A DNA stretch of 64,000 bases from Deltaproteobacteria bacterium (GTDB taxonomy: Bacteria; Bdellovibrionota; Bdellovibrionia; Bdellovibrionales; JAMPXM01): contig JAFLCB010000004.1 in NCBI GenBank assembly GCA_017302795.1, positions 124,001 to 188,000 of the forward strand. The letters run 5' to 3'. The first letter of the stretch is position 1. The number at the start of each line of letters is the position of its first letter. The notes under the pieces were generated by a model. It worked only from the letters and a program-made list of their open reading frames with translations, made no database searches and was not told where the DNA came from. The translations under genes were made by a program, and so were the position numbers. Positions 1,750-60,032 of the stretch are shown here, in pieces.

Positions 1750-2928
1750 ATGATGCACTCAAAATCCAAGACAGAAAAGTCTTCAGGCATTTCTCCCGCC
1801 AGGAAAAGAGCCATCGTCGCGACGTTTTTGATAATTTCAGTCGTGACGATAGCCGGAGCAGTCCGAAAGGTTCTCGATGGCAATCATGTCGCAAAACCAC
1901 CGGTCAAAGAAGTGCCATCGGGAAAAAATATGTTAGAAGATTCCTCCCCCAAAATTCACGGGCCTAGCCTCAGCGAATCAACGTCGCCGACACCAGTTGC
2001 AAGTGTTGCAAGTCGCGAACCTGATGGTGTTGAGCTGTCAGAAGTGCTTATAAAAGACGACGCCTGCCGACTGATGGCGCTCATTGAAGGAGACAAACAA
2101 ACGCCAGTCGAACTCTACCTTCTCTCGACTCCTTTTCGCGCACTCTACGAAGATTATCGGGAAGTTCTGCTCGGTTACGAAATACCGAGCACAAACCTCA
2201 GCAGATTCTACCTCGGACTCGCCCATGCCGATTTGCTTAATAAAGGTGGATGGAAAAATCCTTTCAAAAAATCGTATGCGCGCGCCGCGCGAATTCTTCT
2301 AGATCTCGCACGTACGGACGCTGGAAATGCCGCCCCCGCCGCTTTTGCGCTCATAGTTCTCGAAGCGGCTTTGATCGAAAATGATTCACAGCTAGGAATT
2401 TCGGAATCAGAAAAAACGGAAGCGATCGAGCTCCTTCTGCAGGCCACAAAGTTTGACTCGTACACCCTTGGCTACGTTCGAAATTTAGCAGCGATTGACG
2501 ATCAGCGAGCGACTTCACTTCTCTTACGCGCACAGCACCTTACCAATCTGGCTATACCAGACTGGGTGGAGTTTAAGACGCGATGGGGCCAGTCTCAAGC
2601 CCTGACGTCAGCAGAGAAGCTAAAAATCGTCGACCTCATTGCAGCGAATGCACAAAACGCAAAAAAGCCTTCTAACCATTTAGGATATTCCTACATGGAA
2701 AGCGCGGTCGCCCGAAGCCTTGCTGGCAGTGCGCGGGCCTACCAAACTCCTGAACAAATCGACAACGCTTTTCCAGATTCGAAAACGACTAATTTGGAAA
2801 CCTTCACTGAAGCCAATACATTTAAAAAGCCTTGCGGCGATCCGAAGACGGATCCTATGACAGTTGCCTTGCGGACCTACGTCAAAGAACTTCACCGTCT
2901 TGATGCTGGCCTTGGAGTTAGCTTTTAG
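1750..2928 (+). CDS. membrane-anchored helical protein of unknown function
   Basis: I do not recognise this 392-residue protein. Residues 21-38 form one hydrophobic segment after a Lys/Arg-rich start, so it is probably anchored in the inner membrane with the bulk in the periplasm. A Pro/Ser/Thr-rich linker follows (about 50-95). The remainder is Ala/Leu-rich and looks like helical hairpins of the TPR kind, which is inference from composition only. It begins 30 nt after hypE on the same strand, so it may be cotranscribed, but nothing ties it to hydrogenase assembly. No good ribosome binding site is seen; adjacent ATG ATG codons open the frame. Confidence 0.75.
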   Translation: MMHSKSKTEKSSGISPARKRAIVATFLIISVVTIAGAVRKVLDGNHVAKPPVKEVPSGKNMLEDSSPKIHGPSLSESTSPTPVASVASREPDGVELSEVLIKDDACRLMALIEGDKQTPVELYLLSTPFRALYEDYREVLLGYEIPSTNLSRFYLGLAHADLLNKGGWKNPFKKSYARAARILLDLARTDAGNAAPAAFALIVLEAALIENDSQLGISESEKTEAIELLLQATKFDSYTLGYVRNLAAIDDQRATSLLLRAQHLTNLAIPDWVEFKTRWGQSQALTSAEKLKIVDLIAANAQNAKKPSNHLGYSYMESAVARSLAGSARAYQTPEQIDNAFPDSKTTNLETFTEANTFKKPCGDPKTDPMTVALRTYVKELHRLDAGLGVSF

Positions 2929-31417: not shown

Positions 31418-32331
31418 TCACCTGCAAAAGCCAACGGGGCTTCACCTTAATTGAAGTGATGGTAGCACTCTTGATTCTTGCAGGACTCAGTGTGCTGATG
31501 GCTCAGTCCGTTCGTTCTGGCTTACAAAATCGCCAAAAGGTTCAAAAGCAAATCGCCGAGGAATCGATCATTCGCGATGCAATGCGAATTGTGGCGTCAG
31601 ATGTCGGAGCCGCTTTTCACCACCGCGATTACACCGTGGCGACCTACAATAAGATTTTGGAACTTCGAAAAAAGAAAGCAGCTAGTGCAACTGGCGGAGG
31701 CACCCCTGCCCCAGGCGCGCCAACGCCGACACCAGGAGTTGCTGCCACGCCTGCACAGCCTGATCCGCTCGCTAGCGCAACTCCGCTTCCGACGCCGCAG
31801 CAACTGACAGCTTTTGTCGGAAACGGTGAGCAACTGACCTTCACTGTTCGCAATCATGTTCGACGTTATCTAGACGCCAAAGAAAGTGATCAGGCGACAG
31901 TATTTTATTTTTTAAGAAGTTGTCGATCCGGAGAAAATAACAAGTATTACTCTTCGTGTTTGGTGCGCTTGGAACGCACAGAACCGACAAATGAATTTCC
32001 ACTTTCGCCCAGAGATGAAGCAGACAGCCAAGCCCAGGTTCTTGTTCCCTATGTGACCGAGTTCAAACTTCGCTACATCGCAGCTGGAATGTCAGACTTT
32101 ACCGATACCTGGGATTCGCGGACCGAAAGTACCAGTGCGGCCACGCGTGGAAACTTTCCCGATGCTGTCGAGGTTACTCTGACCGTACAAAACAAAGAGG
32201 ACAAAAATTCGAAAGCGAGAAGTTTGACTTGGCTTGCACCAGTGCGACATTCCAACAATCCCGATGAGTCCGAAAAGACTGGAAGCGGCACTCCCCGCCC
32301 TGGCGCTACTCCCACGGGGGCTCAACAATGA
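31414..32331 (+). CDS. gspJ: minor pseudopilin GspJ
   Basis: A 305-residue minor pseudopilin with GTG start and short leader (CKSQRG) before FTLIEVMVALLILAG. The soluble domain matches GspJ position and general pattern (EFKLRYIAAGM, DAVEVTLTVQNKEDKN). It is longer than usual because of a Pro/Ala/Thr-rich insertion near residues 90-130 and a similar tail. Overlaps gspI and gspK by 4 nt. Confidence 0.88.
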   Translation: MITCKSQRGFTLIEVMVALLILAGLSVLMAQSVRSGLQNRQKVQKQIAEESIIRDAMRIVASDVGAAFHHRDYTVATYNKILELRKKKAASATGGGTPAPGAPTPTPGVAATPAQPDPLASATPLPTPQQLTAFVGNGEQLTFTVRNHVRRYLDAKESDQATVFYFLRSCRSGENNKYYSSCLVRLERTEPTNEFPLSPRDEADSQAQVLVPYVTEFKLRYIAAGMSDFTDTWDSRTESTSAATRGNFPDAVEVTLTVQNKEDKNSKARSLTWLAPVRHSNNPDESEKTGSGTPRPGATPTGAQQ

Positions 32332-33617
32332 TTTTTAGCCGGATTAGAAATGAAAAGTCAGAGCGAGGCGCAGCCCTTATGCTTGCGCTTTTTGCGACGA
32401 CGCTTCTGATGGTGATCGCAACCGAAATTATGTACGAAACAAGCGTTGAATATATCGTATCGACTCAATCGGTGAACCAAGTCCGCGCCTATTGGGCTGC
32501 GCGCGCTGGAACCGAGATGAGCCTCCTTAGGATTCACATTTATCGACAAGCTCTTGCTATGGGCGCCAGCCAATTACCAGATCCTAAGATTCTTGATGAA
32601 ATCTGGCGCCAGCCGTTTCTATGGCCCCCGCCGATACCTCAGTCGATGACCATCGCCGAAGGGGACGACATTAAAAAGGCCGTTCAAAGCAGCGACCTAA
32701 CAACGTTGAAGGTGAGTTATCTTTCGACCATTGAAGCCGAGGGCGCAAAGGTGGATATAAATGACCTTGGTTCGCCTTCTAAAATTATGGCCGAGGCGGC
32801 AAGAAAGCAGCTCCGGCAAATTTTCAGCCAAAAAGTTGAAAACGACGAGGAATTTTCCAAACGCTTTCGGGGTTTCGACTTTGAGGAAGTCATCAACAAC
32901 ATCGCTGATTGGATCGATTCCGACGACGCCGCAAGGAATGGTGGATCTGAACGCCAAGCTTATTCAGATCAATCTAGGTCGACCTTCATGCCCCCAAACC
33001 AACCGCTAAGAACTCTTCCCGAACTTCACCAAGTTGCAGGTATGACGGATGAACTCTATGACCTGATCTCACCGTCCGTCACGTTGTATGGAGGAAAAGG
33101 GATCAGCGTTAACCAGGCCACCAAAGATGTCTTCAAAGCTTTCGGAACAGGCTTTACCGACGAACGGATTGATCGGATCATCGCGGACCGACAAGACCCA
33201 AAGCGCGGACCCTTTAAAGACGAAGAAGATTTCACACAATACTTAAGTTCCATCGGGATTACGGGAAATCCCTTTGATCTAGGCGAAGGCGCAAAAGTTC
33301 CCCTAGTCTTTGAGCCAGAAACCATTTTTAAAATTCGCTCTACCGGGAAATCCGGCCAAGCCCAAAGCGACATTACGGCCATCGTTTATGACGCTGATAA
33401 AGTGCGTAGTAGGCTTGAAAAAGCCCTTGTAGACGAAGCCACCAAAGCCACTGCTGGCGCTGGTTCTGGCGCAAATGGCGCTTCGGGATCTGGCGCTACG
33501 GCCGATGGTAAAGATGGAAAATCGTCGACAGCCGACGGCAAAGATGCGAACAAGGCCGATAGTCCAGCTGCGCCCCCGCTAAAACGGCCAAAGATTGTCT
33601 ATTGGAACGAGCAGTAA
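32328..33617 (+). CDS. gspK: minor pseudopilin GspK
   Basis: Tip subunit of the pseudopilus, the largest minor pseudopilin (429 residues). The leader ends SERG before AALMLALFATTLLMVIA; the lack of Glu5 is normal for GspK. The helical insert has SKIMAEAARKQLRQIF and IADWIDSDD, and the helix-hairpin-helix-like region LPELHQVAGM...INQATKD-type motifs are present. About 55 C-terminal residues are Gly/Ala/Ser/Asp/Lys-rich with repeated ADGKD, not part of the usual fold. Confidence 0.92.
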   Translation: MIFSRIRNEKSERGAALMLALFATTLLMVIATEIMYETSVEYIVSTQSVNQVRAYWAARAGTEMSLLRIHIYRQALAMGASQLPDPKILDEIWRQPFLWPPPIPQSMTIAEGDDIKKAVQSSDLTTLKVSYLSTIEAEGAKVDINDLGSPSKIMAEAARKQLRQIFSQKVENDEEFSKRFRGFDFEEVINNIADWIDSDDAARNGGSERQAYSDQSRSTFMPPNQPLRTLPELHQVAGMTDELYDLISPSVTLYGGKGISVNQATKDVFKAFGTGFTDERIDRIIADRQDPKRGPFKDEEDFTQYLSSIGITGNPFDLGEGAKVPLVFEPETIFKIRSTGKSGQAQSDITAIVYDADKVRSRLEKALVDEATKATAGAGSGANGASGSGATADGKDGKSSTADGKDANKADSPAAPPLKRPKIVYWNEQ

Positions 33618-37697: not shown

Positions 37698-38102
37698 AAG
37701 TCTATTTTGTCGCTACGGCCTCCGGCCTGCGTCTCGGGTGAGCCTCGCTCCTTCGAAGCTCTCACCCTCGTTTCGATGCAGGGGCATCGAAAGATAAGAC
37801 AGGTCGCTACGGCCTCCGGCCTGCGCTGCTTTCGATGCGGGGGCATCGAAAGATAAAGACAAGGTCGCTACGGCCTCCGGCCTACGCTGCTTTCGATGCA
37901 GGGGCATCGAAAGATAAAGACAGGTCGCTACGGCTTGGCGACCCTCCATAGGGGGGGCCCCGCCAAGAGCCTCCTCGAATTTTTCTTATGTACCGCGATT
38001 CTTGTTGAGTCGCGATACATACCGACAATTGTCCTGCTACTACTCCGATTCTGATGCCTCTTCGCACCAGCTACCCTTAGAATAATGGAAGCGAGGTCAT
38101 CC
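37698..38102 (+). other. 405-nt gene-free gap holding a palindromic repeat array
   Basis: The left half (37709-37978) consists of four consecutive units of the two-hairpin repeat; the right half contains only the upstream region of the next gene, with no gene of its own and no promoter that I can name with confidence. Confidence 0.7.
37709..37978 (+). repeat. array of four two-hairpin palindromic repeats
   Basis: Units start at 37709, 37802, 37863 and 37923, each with GTCGCTACGG. Units 2 and 3 are nearly identical and repeat with a 60-61 nt period. The basic unit has hairpin 1 (GGCC-TCC-GGCC) and hairpin 2 (TTTCGATGC/GCATCGAAA) followed by GATAA. Unit 1 carries a 39-nt insert between the hairpins. 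Unit 4 replaces the inner part by CTTGGCG...CGCCAAG with a nested hairpin. Related copies occur at 39033, 50721, 55443 and inside rbfA. There are no unique spacers, so it is not a CRISPR. Confidence 0.85.
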
Positions 38103-39032: not shown

Positions 39033-39146
39033 GTCGCTACGGCTTGGCGACCCTCCGCAGGAGGGCCCCGCCAAGGGCCTTCGTCTCGGGCGAGCCTCGC
39101 TCCTTCGAAGCTCTCACCCTCGTTTCGTGCAGTGGCGCGAAAAGAC
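39033..39146 (+). repeat. composite copy of the palindromic repeat
   Basis: Begins GTCGCTACGGCTTGGCGACC with nested stem CTTGGCG/CGCCAAG around CCCTCC-GCA-GGAGGG, like the unit at 37923. It continues into the same 39-nt segment found inside the unit at 37709 (one base different over most of its length), and ends with a TTTCG...CGAAA hairpin and AAGAC. It lies three bases past the stop codon of the barrel-like gene. Confidence 0.8.
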
Positions 39147-50059: not shown

Positions 50060-50719
50060 ATGGCGCCTACAGATCACGGCTCTAAAAAGTCCGACAAGCC
50101 AACGCACCCGAAAGGGATCGGCATTTCAGACGCAACCACAGAAACAATTCTCGACGTCTCCGCCCAGATTTCTCACGAAATTGTCGACGGCGCCAAAGAT
50201 CGAGCAAATGAGCTGTTTCATCTGCCGATGATGGTATTGAAATTTTTGATTAATCCTTACCGATTCATTCGGACGACACCCGATTTAAGAACGGTTTCCT
50301 GGGTCGTACTGGCCATCTCAAGCGGAATTCTTGGCGCAGTCGTCAACGCAGTGATCTACCAAAGTGCCTGGCGTTTCTTGATGGCAGTTTTGATTTTGCC
50401 GGTGGGTGCTTTTTTATCTGTATTTGCGACGAATTCGATTCTTAAGCTGGTTTTCCGTGGTGCACATGGGATTAAGTATCGATATCGTTCCGGCGCTAGC
50501 ATCTTTGCCTTTGCAAATTTATTTTGGTGGATTCCAATTGGCGCAGCAGAAAAACTTCCAGCGGTCGCACTCATTGGATTTTTCGCGGCACTCTCCATAG
50601 CGGCTGTCGGCTATACCGAAAAACTCGGACTGCCAAAATACCTAGTTCTGCGATGGTTTGCCGTGATTGCGGTCGCGCACACGGCTCTTTGGTCCATTGG
50701 TAGATTCATCAGTGATTAA
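50060..50719 (+). CDS. Yip1-like multi-spanning membrane protein
   Basis: A 219-residue protein with a polar N-terminus of about 60 residues and five hydrophobic segments (about 76-95, 100-120, 140-160, 163-180, 190-210). Length and topology recall the Yip1 domain family, but the sequence match is too weak to be sure. It begins 12 nt after the lipase-like gene and probably shares its transcript. Confidence 0.6.
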   Translation: MAPTDHGSKKSDKPTHPKGIGISDATTETILDVSAQISHEIVDGAKDRANELFHLPMMVLKFLINPYRFIRTTPDLRTVSWVVLAISSGILGAVVNAVIYQSAWRFLMAVLILPVGAFLSVFATNSILKLVFRGAHGIKYRYRSGASIFAFANLFWWIPIGAAEKLPAVALIGFFAALSIAAVGYTEKLGLPKYLVLRWFAVIAVAHTALWSIGRFISD

Positions 50720-50720
50720 A

Positions 50721-50747
50721 AGCAGCGCAGGCCGGAGGCCGCAGCGA
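50721..50747 (-). repeat. partial copy of the palindromic repeat
   Basis: Reads GTCGCTGCGGCCTCCGGCCT and on to GCGCTGCT on the minus strand, i.e. hairpin 1 of the repeat found at 37802, with one change. It fills the 33-nt gap between two convergent genes and may act as their shared transcript end. Confidence 0.75.
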
Positions 50748-50752
50748 CACAC

Positions 50753-55294: not shown

Positions 55295-55442
55295 TATTTC
55301 TCCCTTTCAATTGGAGTGTTTTGATTCCTTCAGGACCTCGTTCGCGTCATGGCTGTCGACGAACAAAGTTTTCTGAAAAACGCTGTTAAAACGTTGAACT
55401 AGGGGTACCGAAGATAGCGCGAAATGTCTAGAAAGAATCGCC

Positions 55443-55502
55443 CGAGTCGCAGGCCTTTGCCGGGGGCCCTGCCTCACGGAGGGGATCGCCAGGCCGCAGC
55501 GA
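55443..55502 (-). repeat. diverged copy of the palindromic repeat
   Basis: On the minus strand it begins GTCGCTGCGGCCTGGCGA and continues with CCCCTCC...GGGCC and CCGGCAAAGGCCTGCGACT, the layout of the units at 37923 and 39033. It lies in the gap between truB and rpsO. Confidence 0.6.
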
Positions 55503-55521
55503 CGCAATAGCTTCAAGCCCA

Positions 55522-56481
55522 TTAGGGCTGGAAAACACGTCGGATTTTATAAAACTCTCCAGGTTCGGCCGCCAGAAGCGCTAAAAGGCGATTTTCCTCA
55601 CGGTCTATAACCCGTATGGGAGCTGGCTGAGTTCCAAGCTGAATTTTTCGCAAAAGTTCAGCCTGAACAGCTTTCGAAATCTGGCCATTTTTTAGCAAAG
55701 CGGCATCTTGACCCGCTACTTCAATTCGTCCGAAATGCGGAAGCGCCTCGTCAAGTGGCACCCAAGACGAGCCCAGCACCTCGCCGGACCTCCCCTTTCG
55801 ATTCTCCCAAAGGTCGGAAATCGTCCCCAGCCGCTTCGCTTTCGCCACATTGAAAGGCGCGCTCTCGACGCGGCGGAGAGCACTCACCGTGCCGCCAAAC
55901 CCTAGTAATCCTCCCACGTAATTCGCCCAGGCTCGAATAAAACTGCCTTTACTACACGAAATTCGCATTGTGAACTCAGCCGTTTCCGGCGACCAGCTTA
56001 ACCATTGAAGTCCATAAAAGGTCATTTCGCGAACTGGAACTTCTTCGGGACGTTCGCCCTTGTGCGCAAGCTCATAAAGTTTTTTCCCGCCGACTTTTAC
56101 CGCAGAGTGCACAGGAACTTCTAAACTCAATACGCCGGTCGCAGACAAGGAGACTTCCCGCACCCTGGCTTCTGACACTTCCTGAAGAAACTGTCCTTGC
56201 GAGTCGCGAAGCGAAGTTTCTTTTAAAACTTTCCCCGTGATGTCCATCGAGTCGGTTTCTAAGCCCATTCGAACTGTGACTTCGTAGGACTTGTCGCCGT
56301 TAAGAAGATAATCGGAAATCTTCGTAGCTTCGCCAACCAACAAAAGCAGCAGCCCAGAGGCGAGGGGATCAAGAGTTCCAGCGTGACCGATGGAACGAAT
56401 ACCAAGCGTGCGCCTTGCTCTCGCAACGACGTCGTGACTGGTCATTCCTGGTTCTTTATCAACCAAGAGAACGCCGTTCAC
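55522..56481 (-). CDS. truB: tRNA pseudouridine-55 synthase
   Basis: Makes pseudouridine 55 in the T-arm of tRNAs. The 319 residues start MNGVLLVDKEPGMTSHDVV, with the catalytic Asp in GHAGTLDPLASGLLLLLVGEATK and the SKGSFIRAW motif. The N-terminal core is normal and the C-terminal part has a PUA-like end. Its start overlaps the rbfA stop by 4 nt. Confidence 0.96.
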   Translation of the reverse strand: MNGVLLVDKEPGMTSHDVVARARRTLGIRSIGHAGTLDPLASGLLLLLVGEATKISDYLLNGDKSYEVTVRMGLETDSMDITGKVLKETSLRDSQGQFLQEVSEARVREVSLSATGVLSLEVPVHSAVKVGGKKLYELAHKGERPEEVPVREMTFYGLQWLSWSPETAEFTMRISCSKGSFIRAWANYVGGLLGFGGTVSALRRVESAPFNVAKAKRLGTISDLWENRKGRSGEVLGSSWVPLDEALPHFGRIEVAGQDAALLKNGQISKAVQAELLRKIQLGTQPAPIRVIDREENRLLALLAAEPGEFYKIRRVFQP

Positions 56482-56999
56482 TCTGACTCTCCGTTTGTGT
56501 CGCTTTGGGCTCCGCCCTTCGCTGCTTTCGGTGCAGGAGCACCGAAAGATTGGGGAGATTCCTCATTGGTGTCGCTTTGGGCTTCGCCCTTCGCTGCTTT
56601 TGCTTCATTGGGTTTGGTGGGGCGAACGCTGTCGAGAATTCCCGAAAGACGAGCCATTTTCTCAAGACCCGTATCGAGAATGAATTCGAACTTTGGAATG
56701 TTTTTTAGACGAAGTTGTTTGTTGACGTCGCGAACGAGTTCTTGCGTTGAGTCCTCAAGTGCTTGAAATATGCGCTCGATCATATCGTCTTTTTTCGCTT
56801 CGCTAGCACCATCGGGAGTAAAAACCGAAACATAGACCTTGGCGATTTTGAAATCGCGAGTCACATCCACGCGAGTGATTGTGACCGGTCCCCTTGGCAC
56901 ATCGCCCAGACCTCTGATGATCCGATTGGCAATAATGTCGCGGAGGGTTTTCGCCACCCGCGACACTCGTACATCATGATCTTGGCCGCCAGAGCTCAT
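56478..56999 (-). CDS. rbfA: ribosome-binding factor A with repeat-derived C-terminal tail
   Basis: RbfA helps mature the 16S rRNA 5' end in cold or stress. The first 120 residues are the normal KH-like fold (RVAKTLRDIIANRI, VTITRVDVTRDFKIAKVYVSVF). The last 45 residues are an added tail that contains two similar peptides, KAAKGEAQSDTN and KAAKGGAQSDTN. Their DNA (56499-56550 and 56571-56601) is the palindromic repeat found elsewhere in the window, read in frame. The infB stop abuts the rbfA start. Confidence 0.94.
   Translation of the reverse strand: MSSGGQDHDVRVSRVAKTLRDIIANRIIRGLGDVPRGPVTITRVDVTRDFKIAKVYVSVFTPDGASEAKKDDMIERIFQALEDSTQELVRDVNKQLRLKNIPKFEFILDTGLEKMARLSGILDSVRPTKPNEAKAAKGEAQSDTNEESPQSFGAPAPKAAKGGAQSDTNGESE
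56499..56601 (+). repeat. palindromic repeat copies inside rbfA
   Basis: A full unit at 56499-56550 and a half unit at 56571-56601. Compared with the unit at 37802, hairpin 1 reads GGGC-TCC-GCCC instead of GGCC-TCC-GGCC and hairpin 2 reads GGTGC...GCACC instead of GATGC...GCATC, so paired bases have changed together. Both are translated as part of RbfA. Confidence 0.8.
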
Positions 57000-59900
57000 T
57001 TAGAACTCACGCGCGATCGATTCCATCTGGAACGCTTCAATCACATCGCCAACTTTAAGATCGTTGTAGTTTTCGATGCTCATACCGCACTCGTAACCTT
57101 GTGCGACTTCTTTTGCGTCATCCTTAAATCGCTTCAAGCTGCCGAGGCGACCCGTGTAGATGATTTTTCCGTCGCGGACGAGGCGAACCTGCGCCGAGCG
57201 AACGATTTTTCCATCGACTACAGAACAACCGGCGATCGTTCCAACTTTTGGTGCATTGAAGATGTTGCGAACTTCCGCACGACCCAATTGTGTTTCTTTG
57301 GACTCTGGAGTGAGAAGTCCGGAAAGGGCCTTCTTCATGTCATCCATCAGTTCATAGACAATCGTGTAAAGCTTGATTTCAACGCCAAGTCGTTTTGCTT
57401 GTGACTGCGCTCCACCGTCGGGACGAACATTGAAACCAACTACAATCCCATTGGCGGTCGAAGCCAAAAGAACGTCGGATTCATTGATACCGCCAACCGC
57501 ACTGTGAACGAGCTTCAGCTTCACTTCGCTCGACGCCAACTTTTCGAACATTCCTTTGATCGCTTCCGCAGATCCAGCAACGTCCGATTTCAAAATAATC
57601 GGAAATTCTTTAACGGCGCCAGCTTTCAGTTTATCGAAGATCGCTTCCATCGAAACTTTCGTTCCTTTGTTCGCGTCATCAAATGCCTGTTTGCGAACTC
57701 CAGCGATTCGAACTGCATCCTCATCTGATTGAACGATATCAAAGCGGTCGCCTGCGTTGGCAACCGCATTTAAACCTAGAATCTCAACCGGACAACTTGG
57801 GCCAGCTTCTTGAACACGCTCGCCGCGATCATTGATCAACGATCGAACACGTCCCGGAACAGAACCAACAACAATTGATTGTCCGACTTTCAAAGTCCCG
57901 TCTTGAACCAAAAGCGTGGCAACTGGTCCACGGCCTTTATCCATACGCGACTCGATGACCACCCCTGTAGCTGAGCGTTCGAGGTTCGCGTCTAGCTCTT
58001 CGACTTCCGCGATCAGCGAAATATGATCTAGAAGTTCCGACAGACCTTCCTTTTTAAGCGCTGAAACCGGAGCGTAAATCGTTGTTCCGCCCCATTCTTC
58101 AGGAACGAGCTCAAACTCTGTCATCTGTTGTTTGATTTTGTCCGGGTTAGCGCCTGGCTTATCCATCTTATTAATCGCAACGATGATCGGTACACCGGCC
58201 GCTTTCGCATGATTGATAGCTTCTGCTGTTTGCGGCATCACACCGTCGTCCGCTGCGACAACAATGACCACGATGTCAGTGACATTCGCTCCGCGAGCAC
58301 GCATTGCCGTAAAGGCTTCGTGGCCCGGCGTATCGATGAAAGTGATGACTCGACCACCATCTGTGGTCACTTGGTACGCGCCAATGTGCTGCGTGATTCC
58401 GCCCGCTTCACCTTCGGCAACTTTGGCTTTGCGAATAGCATCCAAAAGTGAAGTTTTACCGTGATCGACGTGTCCCATGATCGTGACTACTGGTGGTCGC
58501 ACGATTCGCGACGCATCCAGTTTTCCGAACGCAGTCGATTCGATCATTTCCTCTACGGACTCGTGCACGTTTTGCGCTTCGAATCCAAATTCAGGAACGA
58601 TGAGAGCAATGGTATCGAAGTCGAGATCCGTCGACATCGTTGCCATCACTCCTTGAGTCATCAAAGTTTTCGTAATCTGCGCGGCCTTTAAGCCCATTTC
58701 TTGCGCGAGATCAGAAACCTTCATTGTTTGGTTTACTTTAACGACGCGCTTCGAAGCGCGTGGAGTTGTTTTTTGTGTAGAGAGGCCCGCACGGGACAGC
58801 ATTCCCTTTTTCTTTTTTGGTTGGAATACCATTTCGCGTTTACGGAATTCGGTCGACGAGAACGCTGCAACTTCTTCTTCTTTCGTTGCAGCTCCGCCTG
58901 CTCCAACTCGCTTTTCGCGTTTTACTTCAAATTTCTTTTTATCAAGCATGTCGTCAAACGGGTTTCCACCCGCTGATGGCATGACCGGTGCCGAGACAAA
59001 GCCCGCACGAAGCGGTCGAGCTCCGCCGACTCCGCCACTACCGAAACCAGTACCGACAGGGCGTGGTCCACCGCCACTTTGGAAACCTACTGGTCGTGGT
59101 CCACCACTTTGAAATCCACCTGGGCCGGCCGGTTGCGGACGGGGCCCTGCCGGTGCCTGCACACGGGAAAGGTCCATGCGACCAACAATGTTGCGACGAG
59201 GTTCAGACCGAATTCCACTTTGAGGCCCATGTGCTGTCATAACAACTTCGCGCTTTCGCGCGGGCGTTGCCGGGCCACCAACAACTTCCGCTCCACTCGC
59301 TGGTTCAACAGAAATCGTGTCGCCTCCAATTGATACCGGATCGAGAGCTACTGAAGCTCCAGCTACTTGAGCCGCAGGCGAGGAAGTCACTTGGGTCGAT
59401 ACCTGGGCATTTGCAACTACGTTCTCTTCGATCTCGTCAGCACCGGAATCTCCAGGCTCGACAGTTGCGACACCAAGGTTTTCGCTACCGACGTCGACAC
59501 TTCCCGCATGAGCCTGTTCACTGCCTGGATCCAAATCGATTGAATCTGTTTGCGGTTCGTCGAGACCTGGATCGTCCACATCATCGCCGTCGGTTTTCTT
59601 CCGAACGACAACTTTCGAAGCTGCCTTTTTGACAACTATACCGGTTTTTTTTGCTGCCGTTGCCGGCGCAGAGGCAACCGCCTCAGACTTCACAGTCTTG
59701 GTCGTTGTTTTTGCCGCTACTTTTTTTACTGCAGCACCAGCCGATTTCGCGGTGGTTCTAGCCTTAGCAGCTACTTCGTCGGCATCAGCACCTTCCGAAG
59801 TCGCTTTTTTGGCGGCTTTCTTCGTCGCCTTCTTGGCATTTGATCCGGCTGATTCAGAATCTCCGCGAAGCTTCGTTCGAATTTCTTCGAGCATCTCGCT

Positions 59901-60032
59901 GTCGAGATCCGCCATGTGACTTCGAACGGGAAGCTTCCACTCACGGATCTTATCCATAAGTGCGAGCGTCTCCATGCCGATCTCTTTGGCAAATTCGAAA
60001 ACCTTCACTTTGCGTCCTTCCACTTGTACCAC
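57000..60032 (-). CDS. infB: translation initiation factor IF-2 with long low-complexity N-terminus
   Basis: GTPase that brings fMet-tRNA to the 30S subunit. In 1010 residues: an IF2-N-like start ([22 protein letters not shown]), about 330 residues rich in Ala/Lys and then Gly/Pro ([17 protein letters not shown]-type repeats), a second IF2-N module ([21 protein letters not shown]), the G domain with [30 protein letters not shown] and NKMD, and domains II to IV. All G motifs are intact. Begins 27 nt after nusA; no ylxR-like gene lies between. Confidence 0.97.

Follow-up and report, generated by a model that had tools for sequence, protein, structure and literature searches.

A palindromic repeat as part of the RbfA coding sequence in an uncultured Bdellovibrionota genome

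The DNA under study is a stretch of 64,000 nt (hereafter the window) from contig JAFLCB010000004.1 of the assembly GCA_017302795.1, assigned to Bdellovibrionales. At the 3' end of its rbfA gene, directly before truB, a palindromic repeat that is otherwise nearly always found between genes is part of the coding sequence for the C-terminal tail of RbfA. We consider it highly probable (roughly 0.85) that a genus-specific repeat resembling repetitive extragenic palindromes (REPs) inserted in frame at the rbfA/truB junction and was then duplicated, and that the tail is dispensable. The features concerned are:

56478 to 56999, minus strand: rbfA, 173 aa, with the fold at residues ~4-125 and the tail at 126-173
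55522 to 56481, minus strand: truB (TIGR00431, 187.6 bits), with a GTG start that overlaps the rbfA TGA stop
56499 to 56550, plus strand, antisense to rbfA: full 52-nt repeat unit with two hairpins, encoding residues ~150-167
56571 to 56600, plus strand: half copy with the first hairpin only, encoding KAAKGEAQSD (residues 134-143)
56485 to 56535, plus strand: copy 1 of the tandem duplication, in frame, 72-nt spacing
56557 to 56607, plus strand: second copy of this duplication, sharing 82% identity with copy 1
56491 to 56498, plus strand: CCGTTTGT, similar in flank composition to the CTGTTTGT-like leader found ahead of other copies
GGAQSDTNGESE: C-terminal peptide of RbfA, predicted from the sequence

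The rbfA product is matched by TIGR00082 (56.9 bits) and PF02033 (70.8 bits). An earlier note, made from this DNA alone, had placed the end of RbfA outside its fold and had described a duplicated KAAKG(E/G)AQSDTN peptide. Both observations hold. The Pfam RBFA domain extends to residue 121 of 173, and the predicted model has no secondary structure past residue 125, with predicted local distance difference test (pLDDT) values of about 43-61 there; the tail is predicted to be disordered. The C-terminus reads ...PNEA-KAAKGEAQSDTN-EESPQSFGAPAP-KAAKGGAQSDTN-GESE*, the part from KAAKGEAQSDTN to GESE being the last 40 residues, and the peptide occurs at residues 134-145 and 158-169.

The full unit (plus-strand sequence GTCGCTTTGGGCTCCGCCCTTCGCTGCTTTCGGTGCAGGAGCACCGAAAGAT, GTCGCT..AAAGAT) scores 78.9 bits (E 6e-16, R1 search) and belongs to the same family as the intergenic copies of the window. 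Two 30-mer matches, with 0 and 1 mismatch, lie in the tail, where shuffled sequences lead to an expectation of 0. The repeat block (56499-56600) has a length of 102 nt, which corresponds to 34 codons. The 51-nt direct repeat in the tail (82% identity) extends into the flank, and a TT at unit positions 7-8 is common to both rbfA copies while it is absent from the other copies in the source genome. Because of this shared TT and the 72-nt spacing that reaches the flank, we think that a single insertion came first and was then duplicated in tandem and in frame, so that the RbfA tail was probably extended by 72 nt in this second event. The octamer CCGTTTGT is probably the edge of the insertion.

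Comparison with relatives points in the same direction. Among the family genomes compared, only the source genome (G000) carries the repeat inside rbfA. The 11 other family genomes with an RbfA match have short, mostly acidic tails devoid of KAAKG-type peptides, and no repeat match was found in their rbfA-truB junctions. Three of the relatives are metagenome-assembled genomes (MAGs) labelled Bdellovibrionota, Bdellovibrionaceae or Bdellovibrionales. In G000, 48 residues follow the ILDSV motif, and 14 when the 34 repeat codons are subtracted; the corresponding numbers are 15, 7, 19 and 17 in the other genomes of the genus (G001, G002, G003 and G004, respectively). As the relatives lack both tail and repeat, and as removal of 34 codons restores their tail length, this is taken as a lineage-specific in-frame insertion; the tail thus differs as a unit, which is the comparison that the earlier note had called for. 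None of the 11 relatives shows what would speak against it, namely a tail of the same length and with these peptides but without the repeat at the DNA level. We infer insertion in one lineage rather than loss in all relatives.

In the 52-nt repeat unit, two different hairpins form a fixed pair, and the units occur in head-to-tail tandem arrays; 10 genome copies align without gaps. Across 44 copies from three species, 115 cells were changed on both sides of a stem (33 on average in shuffles, 11-19 with slid partners). These compensated changes support both hairpins. The first stem is perfect in a few copies and imperfect in most, with three mostly mismatched columns. The stem opens with G-C, then C-G/U-A; its far end is TGC, followed by the second hairpin. 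Array periods are mostly 57-64 nt outside rbfA, as compared to 72 nt within it. In many arrays the spacer and the flank have short end sequences in common, which fits tandem duplication as well as target-site duplication. By a loose count, roughly one array in two has a full-plus-half architecture. The earlier note was thus correct in describing a full and a half copy in rbfA, while the half copy reflects the common build of the repeat and not a special degeneration. In each of the six reading frames, 79-105 of the 111 copies are open, so that read-through and translation are easy. Of the open frames that extend through other copies into a downstream gene, most were rejected as coding, a start codon being located after the repeat. 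A search of Rfam with the repeat gave no match, and neither did a search of a plasmid collection with the rbfA repeat region.

All five genomes of the genus (G000 to G004) carry the repeat; none of eight other family genomes does. The 128 matches in the stretches fetched from the five genomes, which are those around repeat matches, form 97 arrays. Genes were called with a purpose-written, simple hexamer gene finder rather than a standard program. With these calls, 95 of the 97 arrays are intergenic, in agreement with the intergenic nature attributed to the element in the earlier note, and two lie inside a coding sequence (77% for random placements). In 46 of 97 arrays, the GTCGC end is located at most 15 nt after a same-strand stop codon (3.3% for random intergenic placement), and in 37 it is found only 1-4 nt past the stop. 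The stop is TAA or TAG in 35 of 39 counted arrays that closely follow a gene. In 15 arrays, a convergent stop lies close to the GAT end; start codons are rarely nearby in the arrays as a whole. Copies away from stops have a leader resembling CT[A/G]TTTG[T/C] before GTC. While the GTCGC end often follows a gene stop in sense orientation elsewhere, the rbfA unit is antisense to its operon, as previously noticed. The other copies in the window are:

37709 to 37960, plus strand: intergenic array of three copies followed by a partial one; one of the three bears an additional module
39033 to 39146, plus strand: copy between genes, located 3 nt past a stop codon and bearing two additional hairpin modules
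50719 to 50748, minus strand: half copy between genes, located 4 nt past the stop of a dut-like gene (which we take to be dut, judged by eye from its C-terminal motif)

Extra hairpin modules are found in some copies. Those nested in the first two of these loci (CTTGGCGACCCTCC..GGAGGGCCCCGCCAAG and TCTCGGGCGAGCC..CTCTCGCCCTCG) indicate a modular build. In G000 and G004, copies follow what is apparently the same tRNA-Leu 3' end (CACCA[G/A]TTAT; L102 3748-3927 and L124 12070-12149), which is possibly a site shared by the two genomes. In G001 and G003, copies directly precede the start of the same FliQ-like gene (L131 2083-2132 and L069 1501-1550).

The gene arrangement offers an explanation for how an intergenic repeat could become coding. 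The earlier note had the tail end just before a coupled truB start; the position is correct, and the coupling is to be specified as a TGA/GTG overlap (56481-56478). This overlap is intact in G000 and is also present in G001, G002 and G003. A REP-like repeat with two hairpins, which builds up at the 3' ends of genes and would be mobilised in trans by an enzyme, would have landed at the rbfA/truB junction. As the rbfA stop overlaps the truB start without a spacer, the insertion would have had to fall inside an open reading frame (ORF), and it would have survived because its length is a multiple of three and the disordered, acidic tail is dispensable. An in-frame duplication in situ with a 72-nt period would then have doubled the peptide. 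The extended tail would be translated, and would be neutral or nearly so. More generally, insertions retained at overlapping ORFs would be those in frame and in dispensable termini.

The operon has further copies. It includes, upstream of rbfA:

57000 to 60032, minus strand: infB

A divergent copy is located 2 nt past the infB stop in G001 and G003 (L125 2725-2772; L137 1672-1728), so that insertions in the genus affect two separate junctions of this operon. In the window, a degenerate related element (55433-55503, minus strand) follows truB at a distance of ~18 nt. Together with the repeat in rbfA, it brackets truB.

The second array inside a coding sequence is found in G004. The leader of a type II secretion K-like protein (MKGLLRRFGRWPALLFAQKRETISLRRFGRSGLRSEKGAALILAL...) is there largely encoded by one full and one half copy:

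L120 (G004 C7:18700-22900), 2072 to 2123, minus strand: repeat within the coding sequence of the GspK-like gene

Upstream of the conserved KGAALI, this gene has no other ATG, GTG or TTG. The leader is short in its orthologs from G000 (window 32328-33617), G001 and G003. This case is independent of that in rbfA. Similar to rbfA/truB, the start of the G004 gene shares nucleotides with the stop of the gene upstream (ATGA), and from these two cases we infer a route by which stop/start overlaps turn repeats into coding sequence.

Events of this kind are already known, since in-frame insertions of REPs and of Rickettsia palindromic elements (RPEs) have been published and truB is a recurrent target. 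RPEs are protein-coding palindromes with frequent in-frame insertion (Ogata et al., reviewed in PMC10969869). According to that review, they have ~150 bp and nearly half of those first reported are intragenic. The truB gene of R. conorii itself carries RPE-1 (PMC3733652). The repeat described here resembles RPEs as a short, dispersed palindrome that is in frame in unrelated genes (rbfA in G000, gspK-like in G004) and apparently read as an extra peptide. It is set apart from them, by description, by its 52-nt unit and by having only 2 of 97 arrays intragenic.

Intragenic REPs tagged GTAG or CGTC occur in frame in ORFs, some at ORF ends; truB genes are among the REP targets, and no transposase is linked to the CGTC type (Di Nocera et al. 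2013, PMC3733652, a text that does not mention Bdellovibrio). The likeness to CGTC REPs includes the end tag [C/T]GTC (112 of the copies counted, with TGTC in 82 and CGTC in 30; the super-family admits CGTC, TGTC or CCTC), intragenic in-frame copies, involvement of the truB region and the lack of a consistently linked transposase. In CGTC REPs, however, the 8-9 bp stem opens with two AT pairs and a CCA tail is present; neither is found here, and the fixed pair of different hairpins in head-to-tail arrays distinguishes our repeat from both CGTC and GTAG REPs. GTAG REPs are defined by a GT[AG]G foot, with a REP-associated tyrosine transposase (RAYT) gene flanked by the repeat (PMC6006769); the same paper reports that REPs have inserted into RAYT genes with the frame preserved. 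The foot of our repeat is GTCG in 113 copies and GTAG in 1, and in contrast to GTAG REPtrons it does not flank the Y1 loci checked. In E. coli, REPs within 15 nt of stop codons can stall ribosomes (PMC12306157). The repeat described here likewise follows stop codons very closely, but with a tighter spacing (mostly 1-4 nt) and another sequence, and the rbfA copy is antisense and within the ORF. In a broad sense it is a REP, being a short imperfect palindrome with many dispersed copies that are mainly intergenic and 3' of genes. Text searches of partial coverage found no literature linking such repeats to Bdellovibrio, and the family appears to be undescribed.

Alternatively, the hairpins could have been kept as a domesticated RNA element that tunes truB expression or protects the upstream mRNA, the peptide being a by-product. 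That hairpins would form in the rbfA-truB mRNA, as the earlier note had proposed, agrees with the folding prediction (-39.6 kcal/mol, z -3.85, for the transcribed 102 nt), and E. coli REPs near stops can alter translation (PMC12306157, citing earlier work). Nevertheless, the insert hardly alters how open the truB start region is predicted to be (0.50 with and 0.49 without it), ribosomes translating rbfA would melt the hairpins, the unit is oriented opposite to the usual stop-proximal copies, and no terminator-like site was found at the rbfA-truB repeat. We consider this alternative unlikely. Even less likely is a functional tail, in which the repeated KAAKGxAQSDTN gives RbfA a new binding or regulatory property. 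The duplication keeps the peptide nearly identical (1 of 12 residues differs), but the DNA copies are also nearly identical, so that a recent duplication explains this; moreover, the tail is predicted to be disordered and relatives manage without it. Least credible of all is a product of chance convergence or MAG misassembly, even though the source genome is a 39-contig draft. Against it stand the E-value cited above, an insert that is a multiple of three and the intact stop/start overlap; the TT at positions 7-8, confined to the rbfA copies, argues against pasting from another array.

Insertion of the repeat followed by duplication is thus preferred, with several points weighing against it. 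An in-frame length by itself has a chance of 1 in 3, and the insertion boundaries are uncertain by about 9 nt. The source species is represented by one genome, one genome per species was compared, and the family genomes are MAGs of varying completeness. Among the Y1_Tnp loci of the genus, no transposase gene was found that is consistently linked to the repeat, and none of 20 such loci has a repeat within about 1.5 kb. A link to RAYTs was therefore rejected, even though Y1_Tnp/REP_Tyr-like proteins exist. One of these, encoded in G000 (L030 1252-2103, C3), resembles REP-associated tyrosine transposases and is not flanked by the repeat; it scores 56 bits against NF047646, below the cut-off of 80. 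One further Y1 match (G004 C45) is ~0.4 kb from a repeat copy.

It is tempting to speculate, though this is rather doubtful, that the repeat is a mobile hairpin element that recognises gene 3' ends (CTA[A/G] stop context, 1-4 nt offset) via a novel enzyme, and that landing at stop/start overlaps is a regular route to new protein tails and leaders in this genus. With the repeat in rbfA, an uncultured Bdellovibrionota lineage would join the few bacteria known to have turned intergenic palindromes into protein sequence. The suggested rule is that a repeat tolerated just after stop codons may become coding when the next start overlaps the stop, and the tight offset of 1-4 nt makes it testable whether targeting or selection is responsible.
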